From: Plicaturopsis crispa FD-325 SS-3
Taxonomy: Eukaryota > Basidiomycota > Agaricomycetes > Amylocorticiales > Amylocorticiaceae
DNA length: 64,000 nucleotides
Assembly: GCA_000827205.1 (NCBI GenBank)
Contig: KN832554.1
Coordinates: forward strand, 1,238,345 to 1,302,344
Direction: 5' to 3'
The notes under the pieces are model-generated. The model saw nothing but the letters and a program-made list of their open reading frames with translations, did no database searches and was not told the DNA's origin. A program made the position numbers and the translations under genes. Positions 4,745 through 63,671 of the stretch are shown here, in pieces (positions within the stretch are counted from its first letter, which is position 1; each line of letters starts with the position of its first letter).

Positions 4745-5066
4745 TTAGATTAGAAACCTGTAAGACGAAACACACCGGAAGCTTGTACAGGAGCAACAGA
4801 GATTGCACGGACACTGCAAGCTCCGTCGTTCCTGCTCAAGCTTCCGATGAATACATACCGATTACAAATGATAGTGGCGACCATAATTTGAGCAGGGCAG
4901 ACCCTGCACGCCCAGAAGTCCTGCAAAAGGAAATAAAAATAATTAGTGTTGAATGGTACGACAGGCGTGGCACCGTCGGCAAGGGGGAACAATGGCGGAG
5001 AGGTGCGAGAAGCGGGCCTGCAGGCAGTGATGGAATTTGTGGCACATCAGTGAATTTCGGCTAGAG
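4745..5066. repeat. Conserved 320-bp block, copy a
   Basis: This block is about 95% or more identical by eye to 15379-15700 and 16838-17146, while the flanking spacer has drifted further. It stays open on both strands: + 4783-5064 (ending GSDGICGTSVNFG) and - 4992-4750 (starting MFPLADGATPVVPF). Two inverted CAAGCTTCCG-like halves lie near 4780 and 4840. It is either a short conserved exon or a bidirectional regulatory element. No family is recognised. Confidence 0.5.
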
Positions 5067-6038
5067 TATTTCGGACTCACTTGTTGCATCCGGTGGAGCA
5101 CGGCCGCCTCACGGCGGCGCGGCATTTTGGAAGCATCACATACACTCGCTTATTTTTCCCTGCATATATGGGAGGTCAGAAAGTCTGCCTGCATTTCTTG
5201 CACTCACTTTTCCTCTGGCCTTCGTAATGCCAGTGTATTTTTCTGTCACTCCGCTGGACCGATCGCAGCATCCTCGGGCAGCATGCTATACTATGTGTGA
5301 GTCAACTTATTTTATTTTGTCATGTCTGTTGTGTATGCTCACTGATCGTCACGGAGGTGGAAGACAGGTGTGGCGGCGGCGGGACCGCGGCGGCGTGCGA
5401 TCGAGATCGGACTTCAAACTCCGCGGCCACATCGGTTACCGCCAACCTTCTTCGTCTTCGTCGTCCTCCATCGACTTCAATAAAGCGCGCGTTTGTAGGA
5501 AATGGCTCGGGGTACGCGATGCAGGAGAACGCAGGAGATTCATTAGGATATACTTACTGTGAGCCAATTTTTGCGGGTATCCAGTTTGCGACGCTAACCT
5601 CGAATTGTCGCAGATTGCTCTTTTATAAATTTAATGACAAGATGATTTGTTTTGAACCGCAAGCTGTGCGCGTGCCACGTTGAGCATACGGTCCACCGAC
5701 CCACTGGAATCATGCGCCGCGACGCGCGCACGGCCCCGAAGATTTGGCATTCTCCTTCCCAGCAACCTCAAAAGTCGAAACTCGATTTTTGAACGTCCCG
5801 CGGCCAACTGCGCTGGCGCCGAGAGCGAGCTGGCCAAGAATGCGAGACACCGCTCCTTGCTTTGACTCTGCTCGCGGGTGTGCCCGATGCCTTCGAAGGT
5901 TTTATTTTTCGATTTTTGGACGTCCCGCAAACGGGTATTTTGTGCGTACCTTCTCCTCTTCCTCTCGATCGTGTCTTGATATTGATTCTGACTTTCCAGT
6001 GCATCGGCTAATGTCACTTCTCGCGTAACGAGACGCGA

Positions 6039-7495
6039 GCGAGGCCCGCAGGGCCTCGCGTCTCCCTTCCTCTGGCAGTTACGCGCAGGCGAAGATATTA
6101 TTTTTCGATTTTTGGAGATCCCGCGAACGGGTATTTCGGTGCGTATTTGCTGCTCTTCCTATCGACAGAATACTGACGTTCTGTCCAGCACATCGTCTAT
6201 TGCCACGTCTCGCCGCGCGAGACCCGAGCGAGCGATTACGAGCGAGGCCCGCAGGGCCTCGCGATCACTTGAACCTCGTCCTTGCACGCCACCGGCTCCG
6301 ACATTTTTTCTCGATTTTTCGACGTCCGGCGAACGTCTCCATCGGTGAGCAGGTCTTCCTCTCCCTTCGTCGTTGTAGTCGTCTAATCTCGATTGATCCT
6401 TTGCAGACTGTCGGCTAATAACGTCTCGCTACGCGAGACTCGCGTGAGCGATTACGAGCGAGGCCCGCAGGGCCTCGCGACTCCTTTTCTTTGGTGGCCA
6501 CAAGCCCACGGAGATTTTATTTCTCGATTTTTCGGCGTCCCGCGAGCGGCGCTGCAGGTTTGTTTCCCCCTGTGCTCTATGCTTGTGGTAGGATACTAAT
6601 CTCGAGTCGTTCTGCGCAGCCGACGATAAGGAGCGAGGCCCGCAGGGCCTCGCGGTTGTTCTCTCTTGCCCATGCACGCTCCCCTGGCCCTCGACTTTTT
6701 TATTTTCCGATTTTTGGACGTCCGGCGACCGCGTTACGTGGCGCGTACTGAGAGCGAGGCTCGCAGGGCCTCGCGACTGCTCCTCTCTCGTCGACGCACG
6801 CTCCCCAGCCCTTGCCTTTCCATTTTTGATTTTTCGGCGTCCGGCGAGCCCCTCCAAAGGTTCGTTTTATCTCTACGTAGAGTTCTCGCGGGGTATACTA
6901 ACAATGATTCGTTCTGTGCAGTATTTTGAGAGCGAGGCCTGCAGGGCCTCGCGACTACTTTCCTCGCCTCCGTGCATGCTCCCCAACCGTCAACTTTCGA
7001 TTTTTCGATTTTTGGAAGTCCGGCGACCGCTGCACATGCAGCGTATTGAGAGCGAGGCCCGTAGGGCCTCGCGATTACTTCTCTTTCGTCCACACATCCT
7101 CCCCTGCCCTCGATTTTTTTATTTTTCGATTTTCGGACGTCCGGCGACAGCTGTACATAGCGCGTACCGAGAGCGAGGCCCGCAGGGCCTCGCGATTACT
7201 TCTCTCTCGTCCTCGCGTGCTCCCCGGCCCTCGACATTTTGTTTTTCGATTTTTCGACGTCCCGCGAGCGCCGGTGCCGGTGCGTTTCTTTCTGTGTTCT
7301 CTCTTTGTGTGGGTATACTGACATCGACTCGTTCTTCGCAGCATTTGGAGAGCGAGGCCCGTAGGGCCTCGCGACTATGCTTTTCTCGTAACCACTCGCA
7401 TGTTCCCCAGGTCCTCGACAATGTTTTTCGATTTTTCGACGTCCGGCCACCGCTGTACAAGGACTTCATCGAGAGCGAGGCCCGTAGGGCCTCGG
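6039..7495 (+). repeat. Ladder of ten short hairpins, array 1
   Basis: Ten palindromes with 9-bp arms (GCGAGGCCC, 3-nt loop GCA or GTA, then the reverse complement), starting at about 6039, 6242, 6460, 6633, 6754, 6932, 7052, 7173, 7352 and 7475. Each is followed by 40-45 nt of C/T-rich sequence and then a conserved T-rich tag (TTTTTCGATTTTTCGACGTC) plus CCGGCGA or CCCGCGA. Introns alternate with one or two of these modules, so exon-plus-intron blocks appear to have duplicated in tandem. A second hairpin, GTCTCGCTACGCGAGAC, sits just upstream of some modules (6207, 6423). Confidence 0.8.
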
Positions 7496-7655
7496 TACGG
7501 CTCCTGTCTCGTCCTTGCATGCTCCTCTCGCCCTCGACATTTTCTTTTTCGATTTTCCGACGCCCCGCGAGCGTTCCCACCACCAGGTATGTATCTCTGA
7601 ATCTTCTCGAGCCGCGATAGTATTCTTATTTCGCCTCTCCTTTTGTAGCACATCG

Positions 7656-7690
7656 GGCGACGTCGATCGGTGTCCTTGACACCGGCACGC
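7656..7690 (+). repeat. Conserved hairpin CGGTGTCCTTGACACCG, unit 1
   Basis: Seven-bp stem with 3-nt loop in the first exon after the hairpin ladder. It is unchanged at about 20029-20060 in unit 2, although sequence around it has diverged. Confidence 0.6.
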
Positions 7691-8510
7691 GCCTCTTGAG
7701 CTTCTAAAGCTTGGACGTCCACCGGCAGACTCGCGCCCGCACAGCACGCCGCCGACGCCTAGGCGTCTTGTGTTCTAAGGTAAGCACACACTTATCTTAC
7801 GGAGAGGACATTGTTCTATCGTGACGCGATCTCCCCTAGCTTCCCGGCTTCCCCGCCTCGCCGTCTCGTTCCCGCTCGCCGCCTTCTGCTTGCGGCCCTG
7901 CGGTCGTCGTCTAACCTCAAGGTCATCCCCGACGTGTTCCTCTGCACAACGAGGCTGCCGTCGGCGGTCTTCGTGTACGCGCTGGCATTCACCCTCGCTG
8001 GTTTTTCGCGATGCGGTAAGTCCATGCATATTTTACAGAGATACATCATTTTGATGCGACATTTTACAAGTAGGCAGCCATGTACCTGGATCTCTCGCAT
8101 TGCCGATTCACGTTGACGCCCCGCTTCGAGTGCAAGAAGCACTTCACAAGAATCTCGCGGTAAGTTTTCGGTTGCTAGTTCTCTCGAGAGATACTGACGG
8201 GCGTTGGGTCACCGCTGTCGTGCGGCGTTTTCTTTCAGTTTCTACTCGAAGGGAAGGTGCGCAGGATGGCTTCCCGTGCCCGAGTTGTACGAGCGTGCGA
8301 GACGCGTTGTTCTGGACAATGCGAACGCGGTGAGTTCTAGCCCTTACACTTGCAGCCCGCGGACTGAAGATTTGCGCAGATACTTAGATTCACGGGAATA
8401 CGACGAGGGCATGTTCTGCGCGGTCAACGAGGCACAACGGCGGTGCGGACATCTCAGTGGATGAGGAGGTGTTTCGGGTTTGCAATACTTACAGTAGAGT
8501 AGGGAGCTAC

Positions 8511-8551
8511 GCTGCGCGGTGGGCCCTCCATGTGAGGGCCCACCGCGCAGC
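8511..8551 (+). terminator. Perfect 18-bp hairpin closing the transcript module, unit 1
   Basis: Left arm GCTGCGCGGTGGGCCCTC, 5-nt loop, perfect reverse complement, then CTTTACAAAAA. Unit 2 has the same hairpin at 20861-20901 with one C-to-T change that leaves a G-U pair in RNA. A role as transcript end or processing site is inferred; the hairpin itself is directly visible. Confidence 0.55.
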
Positions 8552-8836: not shown

Positions 8837-10200
8837 ATGCCCGCAATCAAATCAAACAAGTCCGTTCATTGCCTCGGCTTCCCATTTACCGCCGCACGAC
8901 TAATTTCAGCGGCCACAGGGGCAAACAACGCGCACTCGAGGAGACTTATACCGCGCCGCCAGTAAAGAAACGTGCGTCATCGCATTGTTGTCGATATGAT
9001 TTACTGACTTTTCGTGATAGCGAAACGGGCAGAAACGAAACCGTGCCCCGTATGCAAGGAACCCATACCCATCCGCCTCCTCCACGCGCACTCCGTCCTC
9101 GAACTCCAACGCGTCGACGACATCATCAAATCAGTCGGGTCTACAGAGGTCCTCGACGATGACCGCGAAGAGGGGTGAGCCTCCCCACATTCCCTTCCTC
9201 CGACATGTCTAACCGTTCTACAGCCCAAGCACCAAAACCCGCCGCTCAGCACTCAAAGCGCGCACCTCCCTCCGCGCCATGCACCCGCGCAACGGCACCG
9301 CAACCGACACCTCCACCAACCTCCTCCACGCCATCAAGCGCCGCCGCAAGCTCCGCCACGCCCGCCTCCGCTTCCACGACGACGATCATGACGAGGGGCA
9401 TTTACGAGACGCGGAGATGGTGTGCCCGGTGTGCATGCAGGTCGTGAGGGGCGACACGGACGTCGCCGAGGCGCACATCGACGCCTGTTTGGCGCACGCC
9501 AGCAGGGAGGAAGAGGAGGGGGAGATGCATCTCAGCGTCTTGGATGGCGTGAATGTCCGAGGTGAGTACCCAGTCTATCGCACCGGGCCGCGTATGAACG
9601 TCACACAGGAACGGGGTTCGACACGCGGAATCGGGACGAGCAGGACGTCGAGGACGAGGTGGACATTGACGGAGACGACGAGGCCGTGTTCGGCGATGTC
9701 CAGTTCACGGAGGGAGACATCCTCGGGCTCCCGTCGTTTGGGGAGGATGATGCGACCGGGTCGACGCTACGCGATTTAGTCGCCAAGGGCAAGGTCGTGA
9801 CACGGGAGGGCGTGAAAGCAAAGATGGAGGAGGTCATGGGCCTGGGCGACGCAGACCGGATGGACCTCGCCATCCTCACCGCACGGCGAAACAACGATAC
9901 ACCCGGCTTACTCCTCGCGCTCGAGAACAAAATCACTCAACTCGTGCGTCCTCCCCACTCTACATACTCTGCGTTGGGCACACCCGCTGACTGCATCCAC
10001 AGGAATCCATACACATCTCCTCCACCACGTCCCTCCTCTGCCGCATCTGCCTCGACCCGTACACAGAACCCACCGCCAGCACCGGCTGCTGGCACACCTG
10101 CTGCCGCGAGTGCTGGCTCCGCTGTCTCGGCTCGACCAAGCTCTGTCCGATATGTAAGCGCATCACGGCGGCGACGGAGTTGAGGAGGGTGTATTTGTGA
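8837..10200 (+). CDS. RNF220-like RING-type E3 ubiquitin ligase, copy 2 (complete)
   Basis: Complete copy of six predicted exons. It starts MPAIKSNN; the first donor (GTCCGT, near 8860) is weak but gives a 49-bp intron with a CGACTAAT branch site. Domains in order: a basic N-terminus; a first zinc-binding segment CPVCKEPIPIRLLHAHSV; an Arg/Lys/His-rich helix; a second, CPVCMQVVRGDTDVAEAHID; the acidic VDIDGDDEAVFGDVQFTEGD; and the C-terminal RING (CRICLDPY, CWHTCC, CPICKRI). The two CPVC segments plus acidic stretch plus terminal RING match the layout of RNF220, a RING E3 ligase. The terminal ELRRVYL matches that family. The protein is probably soluble: no signal peptide or membrane segment is seen. 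It is flanked on both sides by the repeated noncoding spacer. Target proteins cannot be inferred. Confidence 0.85.
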
Positions 10201-11350
10201 GGACTTGGGATGTGTTTTTGTTTTTGGGTTGTACTTTGCTTTGTGAATTGCTGTTTGGTTACTATGACTGCGGGTGAGTTCCTTTGCATGCTGTGAGCTG
10301 GGCCCGCTCGTTGACTTCGTGCTCACAGGCACCGAGGCGCGATCGAGGACTGCATGTGCGGACGCGCGCGGTGATGTTTTTCGGACGCGACGCGACGCAG
10401 GAAGACAACGCGACACGGTGTGGGCGCGTACGCGGGGCACGAGCGTGGGCATGGTGCCGCTCTAATGGTGAGTACCTCCGTTTGTCGGCGCGCGCGCTCC
10501 TCCTTTTGCGGCGCGTCGTTTTTCCAGGCTTAGGTCTTTTCGCACAAAACGCGCTCGACGCCTGTGCACGATGCTCGCCCGCTCAAGCACGCACGTTAGC
10601 TGGGTGCACACTACTCCCCCGCCCCTCCACGTCTCTTTCGTTTTCGCTGCTCGTCCCCGCAGCGGCCATTTCTGTCGGCGTCCTCATTCCCCGCGTGCGC
10701 CGATTTCGACCGCGCACGCCCACATCTTACAGGCGGCCCTCAAGCTCGTTCTTACATGCTGGGAGCATCGTTCGCGCACCCGACGGCGTGGAGCTTGCTC
10801 GAGGAACCATCGAACTGCGCGCGCGGCGGGCATTTTCGTGATTCCCGCAGATTGTCGGGATTTCCTGGTGAGTTTGTCGAAACTTCGCCCTGTGCCTCTC
10901 GCGGTGTGGACGTTCGGCGGGGTGTACTAAGGTGCGCTGCGGTGTAGTTTTTCATCGCGATCGGCGGTGAACTCGTCGCGGGAACATCAATTCTTGGTTT
11001 TTGCGACGGATTTCACTTCGAGGGGAAATTCGTTTTTTGCCCGGTGGGCGGTTTGGGGTGCGGGTATGGGTGGGCTATGTCCCTGGATATCTGGGAGTGG
11101 TCGCGGCTCGCGCTGAAGCGCCGTCTCCGTCGAGGGAGACTCGTTTTTCCGCGAATTTTTCAGTTTCGAGGGGGAGACTTTGGATTTTTTGCACGCAACG
11201 GCTCCTGTGCAGCTGCCCATCGGTTCCAGTGTGTGTGGCACGCATGTACGGCTATGGGGACGCCTTTCCATTCTTCGTAGAGGCATTGCGACGCGTGTAT
11301 ATACTTATTTCAATGAAAATATTGACTTTGCGAGCGGAATTTTCGATGCG
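10201..11350 (+). ncRNA. Spacer 2, proximal part: rightward splice signals
   Basis: Counterpart of 798-1990. Predicted introns are 10274-10328 and 10468-10527. Another GTGAGT donor lies at about 10867, but its downstream acceptor differs from unit 1, so exon structure there is not conserved. No protein is supported. Confidence 0.4.
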
Positions 11351-11379
11351 TGTTCGTGAGCGGAAACATAAGTCTATTT

Positions 11380-12650
11380 TGCGGGCAGCATTACATCTAC
11401 GTTACAGTATGGAAACCTACAGTATAGAAACACGGCGACGCGCAAAACACGACGCCCAAGGCGAGCAAGCCCGATCCTTACCCCCCCTTTCGTCGAACAC
11501 CATTTCGACGCGGCTGCGCAGAACCCGAGCCCGTCCCGCTGACAATCTACATGCACGAGGATATCGTGCGAGTGAGCAGCGGCCATGCCAGCAACATCAC
11601 CGCACGACAGTCACCCCGTCGGCGACGTTACCTGATAATTGCGCCGTCGCAATATAACTCGCCGTTCCTTTCCGCTGCTACGGCTTCTGGCGAGTCTCGA
11701 TTCCTCTGTCTCGGCTTGCTCTCTCGTTTCCACTATCTTTACTTCGTCGTCTGAACCTATGTACTCACCTGTAGTCAATCCATCTGTCGTCCCAGTCTCT
11801 CGTTTCCACTATCTTTATTTCCTCGTCTGGAGGTATGTCCCTGTAAACGTTCATGTCAGCGACATCACCACACGACAGACAACGCGTCGGCAACTTACCT
11901 GATGATCGCACCGTCGCAATAAATATAGCTCGCTGTTCCTTGCCGCTGTGACGGCGTCAGCCAATTCTTTCTTTTGAGCTTTCTCTCTCGTTTCCACTAT
12001 CTTTATTTCTTCGTCGGGAGGTCTCTCCCTATAATCGTGCCATTAGTCGCCCCAGACCCTCGCTGCGGCTTCAACTGTGTTGCCCGCGGCCACAGATTCA
12101 CGCGTATTTGGACTTATCGGAGACTATGATGGACGGGCGATGGCCATGGCGCGACGAAGCGCGAAGAGCGGTATGTCCGAGCCGTACACGGTCAACATGT
12201 AGCAGCTAGCTGTAAGCAGGGAATACGGCAGAATCAGAAGGGGTATAGCACGTAGGGGGCGTATAGAACATACCGGAGAGCGCGCTTCATCCCCTCGCAT
12301 CAGTGCAGCATCCCAACAAACTAGCTGATGAATGAATCGACTATCAGCAACAGGGACAACACGGACAACAAGAAAGTCTTACCAGACGTCGTAGGGATTA
12401 CTCGGACTGTAGGCACGAGTACAGAAGAAAGACGGCGAGGATGGTAAGACTACGGATAATGAGATGAAACCGCGGTGCGACGCCTTTGCCGTAGGCAGTG
12501 ACGGCGACGAACGACTGCACGGGAAAACACGATGAGCGGCAACCAAACGAGGCGGAAATATGTTCATACCGAATTGCGACGTGCGACAACGTCCAGCACG
12601 GCATGCTGGTTTAATGGAGGGAAGGGAGTGGGGATGAGAGGGATGGAGGA
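11380..12650 (-). ncRNA. Putative leftward spliced noncoding transcript, unit 2
   Basis: Counterpart of the unit 1 leftward transcript. The first predicted intron starts at 12382 (GTAAGA), has a GCTGATAG branch-like site and ends CAGCTAG near 12317. A second ends TTACAG near 12215. At 11724-12020 there are three, not two, tandem modules containing TTTCCACTATCTTTATTT (read on +), and at least one carries a CAGGTGAGT donor on the minus strand. Exon sequence differs from unit 1 by frame-changing indels. Confidence 0.4.
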
Positions 12651-14602: not shown

Positions 14603-14610
14603 ATAGTACA

Positions 14611-15378
14611 GACCAAGTCGCGAAAAGTTGACGCGCCGACTTTGTCGATCTCAGCCACTTTCCAAATCCTCGCGTCTTTCCTCTTGCTCTCATCTCTCAT
14701 CGACACAATTTCGTTGGCCACTTATTGCGACGGCTTGCATTGATCCCCATGCTGCGAAACATAGAGTAGAAATGAATAAAAAGTATTGGGTATGCATTCC
14801 GGATTGATAATTCCATCATTTCGGGCATCGCACGCCTGAAACCAACTTCACCGAGTGAAATTCTGATTCGACCTTGCTGCAGCCACGGTGGTACACTAGC
14901 ATATAGATTCGCTTGTCCACCATTCAATGCATTTGATAGTTGGTCTAGGTGCGAAATAATTAGCCTGCTATAATAAGTCTGTCCCTTATTTTGTACCAAT
15001 TGATTTTACAGTGCACTGGCGGCATTGAATCATACTTGCCATCGACATTCCAGTGTTGTGCACTCTGTTTCAGTGGATTATCTGATATATTTCCTTTGCA
15101 GGCTTGAACTGCCATGCACGCAGAACACTGCAACATTCAAGGGAGATAAAGTATGCCCAGTCTCTTTTGGTGCATCATTATCATATATTCAGCCAGAGTG
15201 TTTTCAGTGTTACAGCCTGAGGGGTCACAATCCGCAAACGCAGGAAACCGTCAAGCGCTCAAGCTTCATACTAATCTATCCCTATCCTAGGCTACAAACC
15301 CAAGATATTACTGACTTCAGTACAGTCAGTTCTAGCAGTCTGACATTGACTTAAGCACGGCATGCACTTTGAGCTCAC
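14611..15378. other. Spacer 2 continued: no gene recognised
   Basis: Aligns with about 3980-4744 of unit 1 with many small indels. No coding frame is shared. Confidence 0.45.
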
Positions 15379-15700
15379 TTAGATTAGAAACCTGTAAGAC
15401 AAACAGCACCGGAAGCTTGTACAGGAGCGACGGAGATTGCACGGACACTGCAAGTTCTGTCGTTCCTGCTCAAGCTTCCGATGAATACATACCTATTACA
15501 AATGATAGTGGCGACCACAATTTGAGCAGGGCACACCCTGCACGCCCAGAAGTCCTGCAAAAGGAAATAAAAATAATTAGTGTGGAATGGTATGACAGGC
15601 GTGGCACCGTCGGCAAGGGGGAACAATGGCGGAGAGGTGCGAGAAGCGGGCCTGCAGGCAGTGATGGAATTTGTGGCACATCAGTGAATTTTGGCTAGAA
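15379..15700. repeat. Conserved 320-bp block, copy b
   Basis: Virtually identical to 16838-17146 over about 300 bp. The plus-strand frame 15369-15698 and the minus-strand frame 15626-15384 both stay open. Confidence 0.5.
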
Positions 15701-15927
15701 TATTTCGGACTCACTTGTTGCATCCGGTGGAGCACGGCCGCCTCACTGCGGCGCGGCGTTTCGGAAGCATCACATACACTCGCTTATTTTTCCCTGCATA
15801 TATGAGAGGTCAGAAAGTCCGTCTGCATTTCTTGCACTCACTTTTCCCCTGGCCTTCGTAATGCCAGTTTATTCTCCGGTCGCTCGCCACCATTGATCGC
15901 AGCATCCTTGGGCAGCATGCTTTACTA

Positions 15928-16677
15928 TGTGTGAGTCAACTTATTTTATTCTGTCATGTCTGTTGTGTATGCTCACTGATTGTCACGGAGGTGGAAGACA
16001 GGTGCGGCGGCGGGACCGCGGCGGCGTGCGATCAAGATCGGACTTCAAACTCCGCGGCCGCATCGGTTACCGCCAACCGTCTTTGTTTTCAACGTCGTCG
16101 TCGTTCATCGACTTCAAGAAAGCGCGCGTTTCGTTTGTAGGAAATGGCTCGGGGTATGCGATGCACGAGAATGCAGGAAATACATTAGGATACACTGTGA
16201 GCCAATTTTGCTCGCGGGTTTCCAGTTTTACAACGCTAACCTCGTACTCTCGCAGATTGCTTTATAAATTTAATGACAAGGTGCTTTATTCTGAACCGCA
16301 AGCTGTGCGTGCACCATATCAAGCATACGGTCCACCGACCCATTGGGATTCTGCGCCGCGACGCGCGCAGGGCCATGCGGCCTGGTGTCCTCCCCGGCAA
16401 CCTCAAAAGTCGAAATTCAATATTCAAACGGCCCGCAGACAACTGCGCTGGCGCCGAGAGCGAGCTCGCCAAGAATGCGGTGCGCCGTTCCTCGCTTTGA
16501 CGCTGCTCGCGGGTGTGCCCGATGCTCTCGAAGATTAAAATTCTTCGATTTTTGGACGTCCCGCGAACGGGTACATCGTGCGTACATTCTCCTCTTTCTC
16601 TCGATCGTTTCCTGACATCGAATTTGTCTGTTCAGTGTATCGGCTAATGTCACGTCTCGCTACGCGAGACGCGAGCG
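15928..16677 (+). ncRNA. 5' part of the hairpin transcript module, interrupted by the gap
   Basis: Same intron set as 5297-6040: a donor GTGAGT near 15931, an intron with CGCTAACC branch point ending TCTCGCAG near 16258, and the GTCTCGCTACGCGAGAC hairpin at 16654-16670. Sequence stops inside what should be the first GCGAGGCCC hairpin. Confidence 0.4.
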
Positions 16678-16837
16678 NNNNNNNNNNNNNNNNNNNNNNN
16701 NNNNNNNNNNNNNNNNNNNNNNNNNNNNNNNNNNNNNNNNNNNNNNNNNNNNNNNNNNNNNNNNNNNNNNNNNNNNNNNNNNNNNNNNNNNNNNNNNNNN
16801 NNNNNNNNNNNNNNNNNNNNNNNNNNNNNNNNNNNNN
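16678..16837. other. Assembly gap of 160 N
   Basis: Unresolved bases. On the left the sequence ends at the first hairpin of the ladder. On the right it restarts at the equivalent of 15391, about 1.3 kb earlier in the module. Confidence 1.
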
Positions 16838-17146
16838 GTAAGACAAACAAGCACCGGAAGCTGTACAGGAGCGACGGAGATTGCACGGACACTGCAAGTT
16901 CTGTCGTTCCTGCTCAAGCTTCCGATGAATACATACCTATTACAAATGATAGTGGCGACCACAATTTGAGCAGGGCACACCCTGCACGCCCAGAAGTCCT
17001 GCAAAAGGAAATAAAAATAATTAGTGTGGAATGGTATGACAGGCGTGGCACCGTCGGCAAGGGGGAACAATGGCGGAGAGGTGCGAGAAGCGGGCCTGCA
17101 GGCAGTGATGGAATTTGTGGCACATCAGTGAATTTTGGCTAGAATA
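16838..17146. repeat. Conserved 320-bp block, copy c (left end in gap)
   Basis: Begins directly at the gap. Nearly identical to copy b until about 17170, after which the two diverge noticeably (for example CGGTGGAGC versus CGGCTGAAC). Confidence 0.5.
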
Positions 17147-18125
17147 TTTCGGACTCACTTGTTGCATCCGGCTGAACACGGCCGCCTCGCAGTGGCGCGG
17201 CGCGTCGGAAGCATGACATACGCTCGGCTAATTTTCCCTGCATAGTATATGGGATGTCAGAAAGTACGTCTGTATTTCTTGCACTCACTTTTCCCCTGGC
17301 CTTCGTAATGCCAGTTTGTTCTTCTGTCACTCCGCAGGATCGATCGCAGCATCCTCGGGCAGCATGCTATACTATGTGTGAGTCCACTTATTTTATTTTG
17401 GCATGTCTGTTGTGTATGCTCACTGATTGTCACGGAGGTGGAAGACAGGTGCGGCGGCGGGACCGCGGCGGCGGCGTGCGATCAAGACCGGACTTCAAAC
17501 TCCGCGGCCACATCGGTTACCGCCAACGTTCTTCGTCTTTGTCGTCGTCCATCGACTTCAAGAAAGCGCGCGTTTAGTAGGAAATGGCTCGGGGTATGAG
17601 ATGCACGAGAATGCAGGAAGTACATTAGGATACATTGTGAGCCAATTTTGTTCGCGGGTTTCCTGTTTACGACGCTAACCTCGCGCTTTCGCAGATTGCT
17701 CTATGAATTTAATGACGAGACGCTTTGTTTTGAACCGCAAGATATTTGCGCGCGCCACATTAAGCCTACGGTCTACCGACCCATTGGAATTCAGCGCCGC
17801 TCCGCTCGCATGGTCGGCCTTGCGGCCTCGACAATCGGATTTTGGCCATCTCCTTCCCAGCGACCTCAAGCGTCGCAATTCGGTTTATGAACGGCCCGCG
17901 GCCAACTGCGCTGGCGCTGAGAGCGAGCTCGCCAAGAATGCGGCGTCACGGGTGTGCCCCATGCCCTCGAAGAATTTATTTTTTCGGTTTTTGGACGTCC
18001 CGCGAACGGGTATTCCGCGCGTACCTTCTCCGCTTTCTCTCGAGCGTTTCCTGACATCGAATCTGTCATTTCAGTGCATCGGCTAGTGCTACGTCTCGCT
18101 ACGCGAGACCCGAGAGCGAATACGA

Positions 18126-19861
18126 GCGAGGCCCGCAGAGCCTCGCGTTCACCTTCCTCTGGTGGTACGCACCTGCGAAGATGTTATTCTTCGATTTTTC
18201 GACATCCCGCGAACGGGTATATCGGTGCGTATTCGCTGCTCTTCCTATCGACAGAATATTGACGTTTGGTCCAGCACATCCCTATCGCCACGTCTCGCTA
18301 CGCGAATCCCGAGCGAGCGATTACGAGCTAGGCCCGCAGGGCCTCGCGACTACTTGATTGATGCTCCCCCGCCCTCGACACCTTTTTTTCGATTTTTCGC
18401 CGTCCGGTGAACGCGTTTACACGGAGCCGATCGAGAGAGGCCCGCAGGGCCTCACCACTGCTTCTTTCTCGTCAACTCGTGCTCCCCGGCCCGACATTTC
18501 GCTTTTTCGACGTCCGGCGAACGTCTCCATTGGTACGCAGGTCTTCATCTCCCTGCACTGGCAGCGTAGTTGTCTAATGTTTATTGATTCTTTGCAGACC
18601 ATCGGCTAACGACGTCTCGCTACGCGAGACCCGCGTAAGCGATTACGAGCGAGGCCCGCAGGGCCTCGCGGTTGTTTTCTCTTGGCCATGCGCACTCGCC
18701 AGGCCCCTGACATTTTTGTTCGATTTTTCGTCGTCCCGCGAGCGCCTCTGCAGGTTTGTTTCCGTCCTTGTGCTTTTCTTGCGGTGGTATACTAATCCCC
18801 ACTCGTTCTGCGCAGCCGACGATTTGGAGCGAGGCCCGCAGGGCCTCGCGGTTGCTTTCTCTTGCCCATGCACGCTCCCCCGGCCCTCGAGTTTTTCCGA
18901 TTTTCGATCTTTGGACGTCCGGCGACCGCGTTACGGGGCGCGTATCGAGAGCGAGGCCCGCAGGGCCTCGCGATCACTTCTTTTCGTCGACGGACGCTCC
19001 CTGGCCCTCGACTTTTTATTTTTCGACTTTTCGACGTCCGGCGAGCGCCTCTAAAGGTTCGTTTTACCTCCACGTTCTCTGCGCGCTTGGTATACTAACA
19101 TCGATTCGTTCTGTACAGTGTATTGTGAGCGAGGCCCGCAGGGCCTCGCGACTACTTCACTCGCATCCGTGCATGCTCCCCGGACCTCAACTTTTTATTT
19201 TTCGATTTTTGGAAGTCCGGCGACCGCTGTACATCCAGCGCATTGAGAGCGAGGCCGGCAGGGCCTCGCGGTTGCGTTCTCTCGTCCATGCACGCTCCCC
19301 CGGTCCCCGACACTTTTTTTTTTTTTTTCTTTCGATTTTTCGTCGTCCGGCGAGCGCCTCTCCAGGTTTGTTTTACCTCCGCGTTCTCTGCTCGCGGGGC
19401 ATACTAACGTTGATTCGTTCTGTGCAGTGTCTCGCGAGCGAGGCCCGCAGGGCCTCGCGACAACATCACCCTCGTCCACACATGCTCACCGGCCCTCGAC
19501 TTTCTTCTTCGATTTTTGGACGTCCGGCGACCGCTGGTATTGAGAGCGAGGCCCGCAGGGCCTCGCGACGACTTCTGCTTCGTCGACGCATGGTCCCGGG
19601 CCCTCGACATTTTTCTTTTTCGATATTTCGACGTCCCGCGAGCGGCCCTACTGGTAAGTTTCCTTCTGTGTTCTGTCCCTGTGTGGGTATACTAACATCG
19701 ACTCGTTCTCCTCAGCATTTGGAGAGCGAGGCCCGTAGGGCCTCGCGACTATGCTTTCTCGTAGCCACTCCCCACGCCCTCGGCTTCTCTTTTTCGATTT
19801 TCGGACGTCCGGCGACCGCTGTACGATGGCGCCATCGTGGGCGAGGCCGGCAGGGCCTCGC
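18126..19861 (+). repeat. Ladder of twelve short hairpins, array 2
   Basis: Palindromes with arm GCGAGGCCC start at about 18126, 18327, 18436, 18649, 18829, 18951, 19129, 19249, 19438, 19545, 19725 and 19841. Changes are few: one arm base at 18126, 18327 and 18436, and GGCCGG for GGCCCG at 19249 and 19841. The 62-bp introns, T-rich tags and second-type hairpins (18093, 18614) alternate as in array 1. Two more modules are present than in array 1. Confidence 0.8.
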
Positions 19862-20028
19862 GACGGCTCCTCTCTCGTCGTTGGCTGCTCCCCAGGCCCT
19901 CGACTTTTTTCTTTTTCGATTTTTCGGCGCCCCGCGGGCGTTCCCATCATCGGGTTCGTATATCTTTGCCTCCTGCCGTTGCGATTGATTTCTTACTTCG
20001 ACTTTCCTTGTGTAGCACATCGGCCGAC

Positions 20029-20060
20029 GTCGATCGGTGTCCTTGACACCGGCACGCGCT
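20029..20060 (+). repeat. Conserved hairpin CGGTGTCCTTGACACCG, unit 2
   Basis: Identical to the unit 1 copy in the first exon after the ladder. Confidence 0.6.
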
Positions 20061-20860
20061 CCTTGAACTTCTGAAGCTCGAAGGTCCGCCGCCGCACTCG
20101 CGTTCACTCAGCACGCCGACGACGTGTTGTGTTCTAAGGTGAGCACACGCCTATTTCACGGGGCGTACTTTGTATTGACGCGACGCGATCTTTGTTAGCT
20201 TCTCGACTTCCCCGCCTTGCTGTCCCGTTCCCGGCTCGCCTCCTTCTGCTCGCGCTTCTGCGCTCCTCGTCTAACTGCAAGGCCGTCCTCGATGTTCTCC
20301 TCTGCAGAACGAGGCCTGCCGCCGGCTGTCTTTGTGCGCCCTCAAGTTTACGCGTTATCGCGGTGAGGTAAGCCGACGCATATCTTACGGAGATACATAA
20401 TTCTGACGCGACTTTATACAAGTAGGAAAACACATACCTCGACACCTCGCATCGCCGACCTACGTTGACGCCTCGCGTCGAGTGCGACAAGCAACGCAAG
20501 ACAATCTCACGGTAAGTTTTCGGTCCCTCGTTCTCTGGAAGGATACTGACTCGGGGTCACGGCTGTTGTGCGGCCTTTTCTTTCAGTTTCCACTCGAAGG
20601 GAAAGTGCGCGGGATGGCGTCGTGTGCACGAGTGCAACGAGCACAGCCGTGCGACACGCGTCGTTCTGGATAGGTCTGCAATGGGAATACGGTGAGTTCC
20701 AGACTACAAACTCGAAGCTCGCGGACTGAAGACTTACACAGATTTACGGCCACACGCGGAGGGCCTGTTTTGTGCGGTTAACGAGGGACGGCGGCGAGTG
20801 GATTCACGAGTGGGGGACGAGGTGTTTCGGTTTGTAAAACTGACTGTAGAGTAGAGTTAC

Positions 20861-20901
20861 GCTGCGCGGTGGGTCCTCCTTGTGAGGGCCCACCGCGCAG
20901 C
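20861..20901 (+). terminator. 18-bp hairpin closing the transcript module, unit 2
   Basis: Same position and arm as 8511-8551 with one substitution that becomes G-U in RNA. It is followed by CTTTACAAAAAA. Confidence 0.55.
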
Positions 20902-21186
20902 TTTACAAAAAATAGATACCTACGCCAGAACCATACTTAACACATTCCGGCCCTAAACCACGAAAGACTTAGAATCGAGGGGGAGGACGAGGAGGAGGTC
21001 GTGAAATTAACAACCGCAAACAGAGAGGTCGCGTCTTTGCACACGTGTTGAGACATGATCGACGCCGTCTCATCCAAAAGAAAGTCGACGCATCCATCCC
21101 ATTCGACTCTGAGATTCACTAGGCAGCCCAGTCCAATATTCACCGTCACCGCACACACACTCCTCGCGCACCGCCTTCCCCTCGAA

Positions 21187-22534
21187 ATGCCCGCAATCAA
21201 ATCAAACAAGTCCGTTCGTTGCCTCGGCTTCCCATTTCCCGCTGCCCTGCTAATTTCAGCGGCTTAAGGGGCAAGAAACGCGCACTCGAGGAGACACCGC
21301 CAATCAAGAAACGTGCGTCCGTCTCATTGCTGAAGATATAATTACTGACTTCTACTCAGCTAAACGGGCAGAAACCAAACCGTGCCCCGTATGCAAGGAA
21401 CCCATACCCATCCGCCTCCTCCACGCGCACTCCGTCCTCGAGCTCCAACGCGTCGACGACATCATCAAGTCCGTCGGGTCCACCGAGGTCCTCGACGATG
21501 ACCGCGAAGAGGGGTGAGTCTCACGTTTATTTCTCAGTTTCCCTCCTGACCACGCCCTGGCAGCCCAAGCACCAAAACCCGCCGCTCAGCACTCAAAGCG
21601 CGCACCTCCCTCCGCGCCATGCACCCGCGCAACGGCACCGCAACCGACACGCACCTCCTCCACGCCATCAAGCGCCGCCGCAAGCTCCGCCACGCCCGCC
21701 TCCGCTTCCACGACGACGATCATGACGAGGGGCATTTACGAGACGCGGAGATGGTGTGCCCGGTGTGCATGCAGGTCGTGAGGGGCGACACGGACGTCGC
21801 CGAGGCGCACATCGACGCGTGTTTGGCGCACGCGAGCAGGGAGGAAGAGGAGGGGGAGATGCATCTCAGCGTCTTGGATGGCGTGAATGTCCGAGGTGAG
21901 TGCCCAATCTATCGCACCGGGCCGCGTATGAACGTCACACAGGAACGGGGTTCGACACGCGGAATCGGGACGAGCAGGACGTCGAGGACGAGGTGGACAT
22001 TGACGGGGACGACGAGGCCGTGTTCGGGGATGCCCAGTTCACGGAGGGAGACATCCTCGGGCTCCCGTCGTTTGGGGAGGATGATGCGACCGGGTCGACG
22101 CTACGCGATTTAGTCGCCAAGGGCAAGGTCGTGACACGGGAGGGCGTGAAAGCAAAGATAGAGGAGGTCATGGGCCTGGGCGATGCAGACCGGATGGACC
22201 TCGCCATCCTCACCGCGCGGCGAAACAACGATACCCCCGGCTTACTCCTCGCGCTCGAGAACAAGATCAAACAACTCGTGCGTCCTCTCCACCTTAAACT
22301 CCCCTCACACATTAACCTGATCACACCCGTTCACAGGAATCCATGCGCATCTCCTCCACCACGTCCCTCCTCTGCCGCATCTGCCTCGACCCGTACACAG
22401 AACCCACCGCCAGCACCGGCTGCTGGCACACCTGCTGCCGCGAGTGCTGGCTCCGCTGTCTCGGCTCGACCAAGCTGTGTCCGATATGTAAGCGCATTAC
22501 GGCGGCGACGGAGTTGCGGAGGGTGTTTTTATGA
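21187..22534 (+). CDS. RNF220-like RING-type E3 ubiquitin ligase, copy 3 (complete)
   Basis: Same exon pattern and domains as copy 2: CPVCKEPIPIRLLHAH, CPVCMQVVRGDTDVAEAHID, the acidic VDIDGDDEAVFGDAQFTEGD, and the terminal RING CRICLDPY/CWHTCC/CPICKRI. It ends ELRRVFL where the others end ELRRVYL. It lacks four residues of copy 2 near the N-terminus and two near TATDTHLLHAIKRRR. All introns keep GT..AG, and the frame is intact throughout, so this copy is likely functional. It is the last gene of the array: homology between units stops shortly after its stop codon. Confidence 0.85.
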
Positions 22535-22612
22535 GGACTTAGAGTGCATTTATGATTTATGATGTGTTTTTGTTTTTGTTTTGTACTTTGCTTTGCTTTG
22601 AAACTTGCTGTC
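21187..22612. repeat. Tandem segmental unit 3 (gene only)
   Basis: Matches units 1 and 2 up to the pyrimidine/TTG-rich 3' flank (about 22610), then diverges. A 20-bp patch at about 23255-23275 again resembles the unit flank at 862-880. Confidence 0.6.
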
Positions 22613-33737: not shown

Positions 33738-36700
33738 TCACGACGGAGCGGTAGCGTCCACAAGGATATTCCTCCGAATAATCGCAATATCCTCATCCCC
33801 AAAACCTACATACTTCTTCAGATACCCATCCACCCCACCGTATTTCTCCTCCAACAAACGCAGAAATGCAATCATAGTTTCCGGCCTGTCATATCATTTG
33901 AGCATAACGTCGATCGCCGACGAGAGGTCGGATGGATGGATGCGCACCGACAGGAAAACATGTTCAGCGCAGCCTCGTTATTCGACGCGAATATCGGTTC
34001 CCTTGCTAGGCGTTCCATGACCATGGCCCGGGAGGGCTCCCGGCCCACGCGGGTGAGGGCGTAGTCTTCCGCTATAACGGAGTCGGGGACGTCTGCGAGC
34101 TGCGTGCATTCCGTTAGAAAAGCCGAGCATTGGCAGAGGTTGGAGCGTGCCTTGAGAATGAGGGCGGCTATAACGCCGGTCCTGTCCTTCCCGGCTACAC
34201 GTGCGGCATGTCAAGCAGCGTATTTCAATCTGGGGGTGTAGGGGAGGGAAATTACCGGTGCAGTGGAATAGGCGGCCCTCGTTTGGCTTGTCGCGGACGT
34301 GTCGGAGGATGGCGCCGAATGCAGGGCCGCCATGGTCGAGTATTTGTGAGTACAGCTCCATGAACGCCTACATGCAAACGAAATCTTAGTTAGCACAGGT
34401 ACAGATTTCGACTTGAGTCCCTCACTTCTGTCTTGCCACTGGCGTACAGCTGATAGCGTCTGCACTTGGTATGAACAGGCGCTCTCTGGACAGCACGCGC
34501 AGACGTAGCACGTACTTACTTCGCCATCATCTCTGGGCTGTAATCTTCCGTCTTGAACACAGGTGCTAATTTCGATGTAAGTTGGGCATAGGGAGGAGCA
34601 GGATGCGCTACGGACCTCTCTCGATATCCACGCCGTCTATGCTTGGTATCGGGGTGTCGTATTTCGCGATTTCGGTATCCGATCTTAGATCGAAGACCTT
34701 TGCAATGTTCAAGTCTCGCATCTGCGCCTTCCCTAGTAAAATATTGAGGGTCAGCTTTGTCTTTGGGAAGCAACAGGTGGACCCGTCAAAACTGGAACGC
34801 AGGGCGCGAGACACGAAAGTGACTGGGATGGATGATGGTGGGTGCTGAGGCTAGCTACACGTCGTATATCTACTGGAAAAGACTCCGAAAACCCCTGAAT
34901 GCACTCCTCCTCACACCTAATCGCGCTCTCTCCTCTGCCTGCAGGTGAACTCGAGGCATGGAGTGACTACTCCATGTGCCCCCCCACGAAAATGCGACGG
35001 CCGCGTCGCCCGCGGGACCTAAGACCTAAGACCTGCGCTTCCGGAGGGTCATAGAGTGCGTTCCTCCCCTGCGTCCCCGCTCCTCGTTGTCGTCGGGTGA
35101 AGGGGCATCCCCCAATGCACCCGCTTCGCTAGGAACATCGGATGAAGGGGCATCCCCCAGTGCATCCGTGTCCCTGCGGGAATCGTTGCCGTCAGGCGAA
35201 GGGGCGTCCCCCAGTGCGCCTGCTTCGCGAACGACAGCGGATGAAGGGGCGTTCCCCAGTGCATCCTCGTCGCTGCGGGTATCGTCATCCTCAGGCGAAG
35301 GGGCATCCCCCAGTGCGCCTGCTTCGCGGTCCGTTACGGGCGAAGGGGCGTTCCCCAGTGCGCCTGTACCGTCGCGGTCGGTGATCGTGTGCTCCTGTGT
35401 GGGAGCACCCGTCTCGGGGGCCTCCGTGTCGTGATCAGACACGTCGCCCACGTCGAGGAAGGTGTCGGCCATGCCGGCCTCGTTCCACTCCTCTTCTGTC
35501 ATTGCGGTGGCTGTCGCGGGGTTGTTGGCGCATGCTGCGAGTAAGTCGGCTTGCTGCTGGGCAAGCCTTGTACCTGGCCGTGGCGTGAATGTTCGGAGGC
35601 GTCGTGCGCTAAAGCGCCCTTTCAGTGGCGTGCCGTCGAGGGTCTCGAGGAGGTATGAGTTCCGCAGTCTCTGCTTTACGCGTCGAGGGGCGGACCAGCG
35701 CGGTATGAGCTTTTTCAGGGTAGTCATGTTGTAGTCGAGCGCATTTCTGTAGACTTGAACGAGGCCGTGGTTGGGAAATATGACCTCGCCGGGGTGAGAG
35801 GCGAGAATGCGCTTGTCGAAGGCGGCCTTTCGGCGCTCGGCATGGTCGGCTATGAATGACTGTCCGTCTAGGCGTTGCTGGTCGGCGTACATGAAGTGGC
35901 GTTGCGCGTCGTCGACAGTGAGCTCGACGGCGTCTGTGTGCGGGCTTCGTTTCCTGGTGTTGATGATCAGGCTGAGCATGAGTTCCTTGGGTGAGTGGTA
36001 GAGCGCCGGCAGGATGCGGCGGTTGAGGAATTCGATGGCGGTGTCGAAGTGCTTTGGCCAGCTGCTCGGTATCGTGTTAGGATCCACCTCCTTGTACGCG
36101 TCCTCGCCGAGGTCTGGGCAGCACAGGCGCTTCAGGCAGCTGAGCAGGATCTTGTTTGAGTTTTCGACGAGTCCGTTGACCCAGGGGGAGTACGCGGCGA
36201 CGACTTCGCGGCGAATTGCCCGTGATTCGCAGTACTCGGCGACTTCCTTGTTGTTGAAATGGGAGCCGCCGTCGGTCATGAATGTATCGGGGGCTGTGAA
36301 ATTCTGTACGATGCTAGAGAGGCCGTGGATGGTGGTTTTGGCCGTGCCGTGGGTCTTGTATTTGAATCCCCAGATGTGCTGGGAGAAGACGTCGACGTAG
36401 AGGGCGACTGTGTGATATCCGGAGGCTTTGGGAAGGGACAGGTAGTCGGCTACGATGAGCTCGAATGGATGTCGTCGGGTAAGCGGCTCGAGGAGGGCGT
36501 GCATATGCGTGCCTCCGTCTCCCTTGCATCGTCCGCATTGCGTGAGGGCGGTGACGATCGACTGATCTAGACGAGGGCTACGGATGCGGTTTAGCAGCTG
36601 CATTTTGATGAGGTCGCGGTGCAGGTGTATGTGGCCATGCTCCGTGCGGGCAAGCTCTGTGGCTTCGGCTTTCGTTACGCACTCTACCCTCGGTTGCGCG

Positions 36701-62522: not shown

Positions 62523-62980
62523 TGCGTCGAGCTTATTGGATATGTCGAATGCAGATAATTAGAAATATCGGGGATATTTCCGAAAGTTTCCGAAAGTTTC
62601 GGAAACTCGTGAACAGCCCTTAAGGGATAGTTCGGCGTTTAAGCGTTAAGGCATCGTTTGGCAAATATCCCTTAAGGTGTATCAAGCCGAATATCCCTTA
62701 AGTGACGTCCGTTAAGGCATACACTCTCAAATATCTCTTAAGGGATATTCACCACACCTGCCCTTAAGAGATACATTGCATAAAATTCCTTAAGGGATAT
62801 TTCGAGAATATCCCTTAAGGGATAAACAACAAGGAATCCCTTAAGAGGTATAAAGCAAACTAAGTCTTAAGGGATAAATCCTCGGATATCGCTTAAGGTG
62901 TGTTTCTCGAAACATCCCTTAACGGATGCCCGGACGCGCCAAACGGGATATAGTTAAACAAAATCGAGACCATACATTCA

Positions 62981-63082
62981 GACGGTTGGCGCAGTGGTTG
63001 GGAACGGCGACGTTATTATTCCCAGTCGCGTGTAAGGTTGAGAGTCCAAGTTCGACTCTCGCGAAGTAGTTTTTTTTTTTTT
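62981..63082 (+). repeat. tRNA-like segment (SINE head or relic) with poly-T end
   Basis: Pol III-like A box TGGCGCAGTGG at 62987-62997, B box AGTTCGACTCT at 63049-63059, and a run of 13 T at 63070-63082. The spacing is typical of tRNA promoters. T-stem and acceptor pairing are poor, so I do not call a functional tRNA. It is more likely a tRNA-derived SINE head or a decayed tRNA captured in the element. Confidence 0.45.
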
Positions 63083-63123
63083 CGAGCCTGGCCCTAAAGC
63101 TTTATTCGGGGTGCTAGGCCTTA

Positions 63124-63379
63124 CTGTAGCTGCGTGTATGGAAGCAACGGTCACGCGTCACGCGGGGTCCGTTGCGTTGCTTATTTTCCGTGGTGTCACG
63201 CATAACGCAGGGTTTTGGACGGGAAAACCTTCCAAATATGTCAATTTTTTCGGACCGGGCAGCCTCCGGCTGCCCATTTATAGTAATTGTCACGCTTCCG
63301 GACCTCCCCGTTGCCTAACTCGGGGAAGTTCAGACCTGTCACGCCCCTCGAGCCGTTGCTTCCATACATGCAGCTACAG
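63124..63379. mobile_element. 256-bp TA-flanked MITE (Tc1/mariner-like)
   Basis: 27-bp inverted ends beginning CTGTAGCTGCGTGT, with a single mismatch between ends. TA dinucleotides lie immediately outside both (63122-63123 and 63380-63381), fitting a Tc1/mariner-type insertion. The symmetry extends a few bases into CTTACTG on each side. The interior has a GGGCAGCC/GGCTGCCC hairpin near 63278 and no coding capacity. It is nested in the TTAAGG element. Confidence 0.8.
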
Positions 63380-63671
63380 TAAGTGATATTCGAGCGTATA
63401 GCCCGTAAGTGATATTCGAACGTATATCCCTTAAGGGATATTCGGTCTTGTATGCCTTAAGGACTATTTAACGTTGTAAGCCTTAAGAGATTGATAGTTT
63501 TCAACCATATGGGTATTCTTGACGACGAGGTGCCCTACAGGGTTTCAATACTACACGCCTTAAGGGCTAAAACACGAGTAATGTCTTAAGGGATATTTAC
63601 AAGGATAACCCTTAAGGGATGTTCACGAGTTTCCGAAACTTTCGGAAAGTTTCCGAAATATCCCCAGTATT

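Follow-up and report, generated by a model that had tools for sequence, protein, structure and literature searches.

Why would a fungal locus repeat one short hairpin ten times amid a run of predicted introns? A sequence-only reading had reported such a ladder at positions 6039 to 7495 of the window, the whole 64-kb stretch of Plicaturopsis crispa DNA analyzed here, and had proposed a spliced RNA that serves as a protein-binding scaffold or as a small-RNA precursor. To our knowledge, no such fungal RNA family is known. We give an even chance to one explanation built from the sequence signals: that the locus is a spliced noncoding RNA gene, the mature product of which would be a repeated module of about 120 nt acting as a multivalent protein-binding and/or self-pairing scaffold.

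Two arrays of one hairpin

How often the hairpin occurs was determined by pattern scan. With up to three mismatches allowed, the window gave 22 matches, against 0.02 expected from shuffles. The ten hairpins with a 3-nt loop first reported were all found, a second array was present downstream, and the scatter of hairpins outside the arrays that had been proposed as the mark of a plain repeat was not seen within the 64 kb, as 22 of 22 matches fell inside the two arrays.

6039..7495, + strand: hairpin array A, ten 21-nt hairpins starting at 6039, 6242, 6458, 6633, 6754, 6932, 7052, 7173, 7352, and 7475
18126..19861, + strand: hairpin array B, twelve hairpins starting at 18126, 18327, 18435, 18649, 18829, 18951, 19129, 19249, 19438, 19546, 19726, and 19841

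In array A, seven of the ten hairpins read exactly GCGAGGCCC-NNN-GGGCCTCGC, and three carry one mismatch. The stem has nine Watson-Crick pairs in seven hairpins, includes one G-U pair in two, and loses its outermost pair in one. The loop reads G-Y-A on the + strand in all 22 hairpins of A and B (18 GCA and 4 GTA), and the hairpin is an almost perfect DNA palindrome. The genomic spacing in A, first given as 100 to 200 bp, is better stated as 120 to 216 bp (standard deviation [SD], 36.4); in B it is 108 to 214 bp (SD, 39.1). Moreover, the tandem duplication previously suspected for the exon-intron block is real: Tandem Repeats Finder reports a 309-bp period in array B, which is about two hairpins plus one intron, and the entire locus is also duplicated.

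Other hairpins accompany the arrays. A hairpin scan, from which palindrome rows made of N runs were dropped, gave the types listed below. A separate scan for perfect stems of at least 7 bp with a 3-nt loop, limited to A, C, G, and T, found 11 in locus A, 11 in locus B, and 1 in a truncated third copy, C, versus 8 in the remaining 54 kb of the window.

6207..6223, 6423-6439, 18093-18109, and 18614-18630, + strand: second hairpin type, GTCTCGC-NNN-GCGAGAC, 7-bp stem and 3-nt loop (hairpin scan)
16653-16671, + strand: second hairpin type, 8-bp version (hairpin scan)
7668..7684, also 20035-20051, + strand: third hairpin type, CGGTGTC-CTT-GACACCG (hairpin scan)
8511..8551, + strand: long hairpin with a perfect 18-bp stem near the putative 3' end of A; counterpart in B at 20861-20901

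The 18-bp hairpin of B differs from that of A by one stem change, C to T, which still pairs as U-G on the + strand. A single change that preserves pairing is weak evidence.

A conserved U-rich box follows each hairpin

A second element is repeated along with the hairpins. The sequence-only reading had noted a T-rich tag, and alignment of the 22 spliced units of A and B resolved it into a defined box, TTTTTCGATTTTTSGACGTCCSGCGA (RNA consensus, UUUUUCGAUUUUUSGACGUCCSGCGA), that is found after each hairpin. With up to three mismatches, the window holds 25 copies where 0 are expected, and 25 of 25 are on the + strand. Each array has one box per hairpin and one extra upstream of the first hairpin.

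5905..7570, + strand: U-rich box, 11 copies in A, starting at 5905, 6101, 6307, 6520, 6703, 6822, 7001, 7122, 7242, 7424, and 7545
17980..19937, + strand: U-rich box, 13 copies in B (pattern match)
16541-16566, + strand: U-rich box, one copy in truncated copy C (pattern match)

In order, the module comprises a GC-rich hairpin of 9 bp capped by a GYA triloop, a linker that is rich in pyrimidines and varies between units, and the U-rich box. Measured from the start of the hairpin, the GTCC core of the box is reached after 74 to 95 nt, and in 14 of 22 units after 83 to 88 nt. Mean column conservation over the 22 units is 0.97 for the hairpin, 0.88 for the box, and 0.72 for the linker. The box is linked to the hairpin and conserved, and it is not palindromic over its full length. 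Two further structures were considered and dropped: the two G/C columns that vary within the box seemed on inspection to pair but formed no helix and followed unit type, and a small stem in the intron-less linkers was, by eye, not kept across copies. An snRNA-like RNA was likewise rejected, as the Sm-type site, RAUUUUUGG, occurs four times in A and twice in B for 24 boxes and is missing from most units.

Predicted introns avoid the hairpins and boxes

How the introns relate to the hairpins was addressed by delimiting introns on the + strand from a GT...AG reading plus a branch motif, which gave 12 in A and 13 in B. A candidate first intron of A was not counted among the 12.

5297..5367, + strand: candidate first intron with a GTGAGT donor and an uncertain 3' end (5356 or 5367); 5' splice motif common to A, B, and C
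5559..5613, + strand: predicted intron i0, 55 bp, branch CTAAC; counterparts in B and C
5942..5999, + strand: predicted intron i1, 58 bp, ambiguous 5' splice site; counterpart in C
6139..6188, + strand: predicted intron i2, 50 bp (GT...AG reading)
6345..6406, + strand: predicted intron i3, 62 bp, branch CTAAT (GT...AG reading)
6558..6619, + strand: predicted intron i4, 62 bp, branch CTAAT (GT...AG reading)
6860..6921, + strand: predicted intron i5, 62 bp, branch CTAAC (GT...AG reading)
7280..7341, + strand: predicted intron i6, 62 bp, branch CTGAC (GT...AG reading)
7587..7648, + strand: predicted intron i7, 62 bp, without a branch match (GT...AG reading)
7780..8379, + strand: 3' part of A with predicted introns i8 (7780-7839), i9 (8016-8073), i10 (8160-8238), and i11 (8330-8379); counterparts in B

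Five introns of exactly 62 bp had been claimed for A, and i3 to i7 of the 12 delimited introns bear this out; B also has five (i4, i5, i5b, i6, and i7). Intron i3 is 62 bp in A versus 65 bp in B, and the donor of i1 is ambiguous in that a different GT was chosen in A and in B. Introns this short are in keeping with a fungal genome. The CTAAC/CTAAT-type branch sites attributed to the 62-bp introns are present in i3, i4, and i5, but i6 departs by one base and i7 has no match to the pattern. The branch motifs of i3 to i6 sit 20 nt from the AG, and the pattern is missing in 4 of the 25 introns (i7, i8, and i11 of A and i11 of B). The hairpins were also said to be separated by introns. That is so for 5 of 9 hairpin-to-hairpin gaps in A, and 6 of 11 gaps in B hold an intron, but introns do not lie between every pair.

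Counted independently of the delimited list, the intron pattern occurs on the + strand 8 times in A and 9 times in B and on the - strand 0 times and once, respectively, and the + strand count was reached by 0 of 300 shuffles in either locus. Moreover, the introns are retained between copies as canonical splice signals, in A versus B and partly in C. None of the 22 hairpins and none of the 24 boxes of A and B (the box of copy C left out) overlaps an intron, and introns occupy 19% of each array. We infer from these signals that the + strand is transcribed and spliced.

Removal of the introns makes the hairpin spacing more even, 113 to 154 nt in A (SD, 14.7) and 108 to 151 nt in B (SD, 13.8), an effect that is partly automatic because intron length is what is removed. 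The spliced spacing is 108 to 127 nt in the 16 units without an extra second hairpin, and the four long spacings, 149 to 154 nt, come from units in which there is an additional small hairpin akin to GTCTCGC-NNN-GCGAGAC. When those four units, all intron bearing, are left out, intron-bearing and intron-less units are of similar mean spliced length, 115.3 versus 121.2 nt in A and 119.8 versus 114.6 nt in B.

The putative RNA gene is duplicated with a RING-type gene

The copies of the locus and their neighbors are as follows.

5165..5200, + strand: candidate TATA-like motif and putative start region of the A transcript; TATAT at the matching place in three copies
17246 (B) and 15799 (C), + strand: TATAT counterparts of the start motif
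17281..20910, + strand: paralogous RNA gene B with 13 predicted introns (17637-20741) and putative ends
14603..16677, + strand: third copy, C, of the 5' part, with one box, truncated by the 160-N gap (16678-16837) where its first hairpin lies
Window start to about 2386: RING gene X0 (RING domain PF13923; E value, 1.6e-9); the window opens inside the gene
8837..11838, + strand: downstream protein gene copy X1, paralogue of RING gene X0, with a putative start codon
From about 21187: protein gene copy X2, paralogue of X0

Copy C has recognizable counterparts of i0 and i1 as well as the first-intron 5' splice motif. The gap that interrupts it is an assembly gap, and a third array may be absent from the assembly. 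The gene order is X0, RNA gene A, X1, RNA copy C, RNA gene B, and X2, and the alternation of copies indicates that the protein gene and the RNA gene were duplicated together. We note that a frame of about 100 codons lies just upstream of each RNA copy (4780-5064 for A, 15336-15695 for C, and 16838-17140 for B); the three are very similar, and the frame of the A copy had no match in Pfam. The long frames of X1 (9566-10180) and X2 (21900-22559) that were tested match a piece of RNF220 and, unlike X0, have no RING match, which could reflect pseudogenization or else an intron or a change of frame at this point. Elsewhere, the window holds ordinary genes, some with eukaryotic domains (MCM, Vac14, and formin) and others such as UreF and GH3. 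An LTR retroelement on the - strand (34771-42034) has 204-nt direct repeats that are 99% identical and a single long frame that encodes reverse transcriptase, RNase H, and integrase domains. Finally, an element of about 1.1 kb (62564-63671) looks like a nonautonomous DNA transposon. Its terminal inverted repeats are 66 nt long and 91% complementary, TTAAGG-type units recur in it, often at intervals of 26 nt, and a 31-nt inverted pair (97%) is nested at 63120-63383.

The chief rival to a scaffold RNA, which we regard as possible but rather doubtful, is regulation in cis of the RING-type gene, for which the unit would serve as an upstream regulator or as a long 5' leader. Expression of that gene would then be set by transcription and termination rather than by the RNA that is made, with the hairpins slowing polymerase or marking the transcript for decay. 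The arrangement is suggestive, as both complete RNA copies lie on the same strand as a copy of the protein gene, directly upstream of it (about 0.3 kb), and were duplicated with it. Moreover, past 8560 the identity of A and B is 93%, versus 79% for the 3' exons, as expected of a promoter common to both, and a review reports that most functional fungal lncRNAs work in cis (PMC8113380). Regulation in cis, however, has no need for 22 near-identical hairpins and their boxes, confined to exons and evenly spaced once spliced, and the 18-bp hairpin together with the conserved stretch before the ATG would point to separate transcripts.

Hairpins are more conserved than the other exon parts and the flanks

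What has been kept since the duplication was asked by aligning A with B. The comparisons rest on paralogues from one 64-kb window. Identities were as follows.

Hairpins: 202/210 aligned bases (96%)
Other array exon: 855/1055 (81%)
Intron interiors: 392/512 (77%)
First six intron bases: 63/72
Last three intron bases: 34/34 aligned (2/36 in gaps)
3' exons: 425/541 (79%)
5' exons: 589/666
Upstream of 5190: 389/430
After 8560: 294/315 (93%)

The hairpins are more alike between A and B than are other array exon, intron interiors, 3' and 5' exons, and the flanking stretches, and the difference from other array exon gives a Fisher P value of 1.5e-9 over columns that are not independent of one another. 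Divergence varies along the locus, since identity is itself 88 to 93% in the 5' exons and in the stretches on either side. Within arrays, identities over 111 unit pairs are 94.7% for the hairpin, 81.3% for the box, and 62.7% for the linker. When units are compared by linker, 5 of 10 A units have their closest B counterpart at the corresponding position, which makes part of the array older than the locus duplication; the other 5 match best elsewhere, so some exchange between units took place. Gene conversion confined to short stretches could mimic constraint, but conversion of whole units would have homogenized the linkers as well.

Conservation of the hairpin is not conservation of pairing. 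Eight stem pairs are off consensus, of which two become G-U on the + strand and six are unpaired (one of these would wobble on the - strand), and there are 0 compensatory changes over the nine stem pairs in 22 copies. Stem changes without compensation indicate that sequence, not pairing, is what is conserved. The palindrome might therefore be kept as DNA, either as the site of a dimeric DNA-binding protein or as a recombination or replication element, with the introns belonging to an otherwise unimportant or decaying transcript. The near-perfect symmetry fits this alternative, as does the loop, because C-GNA-G triloops form very stable DNA mini-hairpins. We consider it unlikely nonetheless. 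A DNA site does not account for the avoidance of introns by the 22 hairpins and 24 boxes tested, for a GYA loop that reads the same way in 22 of 22 copies on the putatively transcribed strand, for spacing that is more even once introns are removed, or for the conservation of a linked box that is not palindromic.

Hairpin copies are predicted to pair with each other

A single 21-nt hairpin is predicted to be stable, at -18.2 kcal/mol, but a dimer of two 21-nt GCA copies, which are able to pair over about 20 bp, is predicted at -43.7 kcal/mol versus -36.4 kcal/mol for two monomers. When a whole array is folded, many of the copies are predicted to pair among themselves instead of forming local hairpins, and the mean stem probability ranges from 0.09 to 0.95 in A and from 0.01 to 0.97 in B. 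The spliced arrays are predicted to be more stable than 20 shuffles (z score, -6.5 each), and deletion of the hairpins brings the z scores to -2.9 and -2.7. Folding energy was dropped as a guide to strand, as the antisense strand folds more stably than the + strand (-586 versus -532 in A and -695 versus -644 in B) and the energy thus cannot indicate the + strand.

Such pairing bears on the second function first proposed, a small-RNA precursor. Palindromic copies might form duplexes of about 20 bp, or the 18-bp hairpin near the 3' end might be cut, giving RNAs of 20 to 22 nt; the dimer energies are compatible with the first and the perfect 18-bp stem at 8511-8551 with the second. The proposal is weakened, however, since a lone hairpin has 9 bp at most, which is short for Dicer, although two copies can pair over about 20 bp. 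Rfam contributes 0 families at gathering score in the window, and the miRNA-family matches of a permissive scan of locus A are far below their gathering scores. We consider a small-RNA or double-stranded RNA precursor improbable.

The exons look noncoding

Could the hairpin be a by-product of conserved codons? Unspliced, stop-free frames cross both arrays (342 amino acids in A and 425 in B), as they would in a degenerate protein-coding tandem-repeat gene. The + strand, however, is poor in A (AT skew of -0.27 to -0.41 in four 1-kb windows of the arrays), which removes stop codons. Moreover, 24 of 32 gaps in the spliced exon alignment of A and B are not multiples of 3, the ATG frames of A and B do not correspond, and the spliced unit lengths of 108 to 127 nt hold to no fixed multiple of 3. 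The exons of A and B look noncoding, with no conserved open reading frame; a protein-coding repeat gene is rejected on frame, and even a degenerate one is very improbable. Least credible of all is a mobile palindromic element that spread by itself, for while the copies are highly identical, the two gaps of unit size in the A/B alignment (99 and 189 columns) include linker and box as well as the hairpin, and the window contains no solo copies outside the two arrays.

A model for a modular scaffold RNA

How a scaffold RNA might work can be sketched from the parts. A spliced + strand RNA displaying a string of hairpins, as the sequence-only reading proposed, fits the splice signals in two paralogous loci, the strand bias of the introns, the restriction of hairpins and boxes to exons, and the noncoding exons. 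Each locus would be a multiexon noncoding RNA gene read on the + strand, and splicing would produce a mature RNA of roughly 2.6 to 2.9 kb, the middle of which would be 10 to 12 modules of about 120 nt. Of the functions first proposed, we also prefer a protein-binding scaffold, with the conserved U-rich box added as a candidate part of what is recognized. The repeated hairpins and boxes would offer many sites for one RNA-binding protein or complex, such that a single RNA could gather many copies of its partner by way of the hairpin or the U-rich box or the two together. The palindromic nature of the hairpin could also let copies pair within or between molecules, and self-pairing would favor a compact or clustered RNA. 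The RNA would most likely act in the nucleus, near its own locus, including the tandem RING-type genes. If transcribed and spliced as predicted, the locus would give a fungus a modular noncoding RNA, with its paralogues as natural replicates, and would allow asking how hairpin number, spacing, and self-pairing build an RNA-protein assembly.

Comparison with known RNAs

Among animal RNAs, XIST and roX are examples of multivalent hairpin RNAs. XIST is spliced and nuclear, and its repeats are GC-rich. The XIST A-repeat is a tandem series of hairpin-forming repeats (8.5 in human) with U-rich linkers between them and possible inter-repeat duplexes, and at least four repeats are required for high-affinity SPEN binding (PMC10870365). 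The fungal arrays likewise combine tandem GC-rich hairpin repeats and U-rich stretches in what, judging from the introns, would be one RNA. They differ in that each unit runs to about 120 nt and has a GYA triloop on a stem of 9 bp, introns interrupt the array, and the U-rich box is itself conserved. Binding by SPEN is a feature of XIST and is not known for the fungal arrays. The GAUAC core of XIST occurs four times in A and three times in B, not once per unit. Rfam holds Xist families; descent from the A-repeat is not supported, as the window has no gathering-score match and none of the six subthreshold matches in the permissive scan of locus A is named Xist. The likeness is one of layout and, in the proposed model, of working, not of descent. 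We speculate that the locus could be an independently evolved counterpart of the A-repeat, a spliced chromatin-associated RNA that would recruit a repressor through its series of palindromic hairpins and U-rich boxes, pair with sister copies, and mark or silence its own tandem gene cluster or tether homologous loci, but we think this full analogy unlikely.

Two other RNAs invite comparison. Like Drosophila roX1 and roX2, the arrays combine stem-loops with U-rich boxes; the roX stem-loops, however, are distinct elements, whereas the fungal gene copies one 21-nt hairpin 10 to 12 times. In roX2, eight stem-loops with U-rich roX boxes are remodeled by the helicase MLE (PMC6486548). The other is sme2/meiRNA of Schizosaccharomyces pombe, a fungal RNA. 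The DSR core of that RNA is TTAAAC (UUAAAC), which occurs 0 times in A and 0 times in B, and this absence speaks against a meiRNA-type DSR RNA. The lncRNA meiRNA has DSR sequences bound by Mmi1, collects at its own locus, and promotes pairing via droplet-forming proteins, and in that account, 14 DSR repeats alone did not cause pairing (PMC6898681), so the repeats cannot be taken as the part of the RNA responsible for pairing.

Searches for relatives returned little. No comparable fungal RNA is described in the literature searched, a body that excludes most subscription journals and bioRxiv preprints, and the words hairpin and stem-loop do not occur in the main text of the review of fungal lncRNAs (PMC8113380). 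ARAGORN predicted no tRNA in the window. The 21-nt hairpin has 0 exact matches in viral contigs and 6 exact stretches in prokaryote genomes, none of which (0 of 6 loci) has the exact box core, and we treat these six as unrelated to the fungal arrays and presumably coincidental. Four of the six fall in a single groundwater bacterial metagenome-assembled genome, where four contigs (L002, L003, L005, and L006) carry the 21-nt palindrome in the manner of a repeated element.
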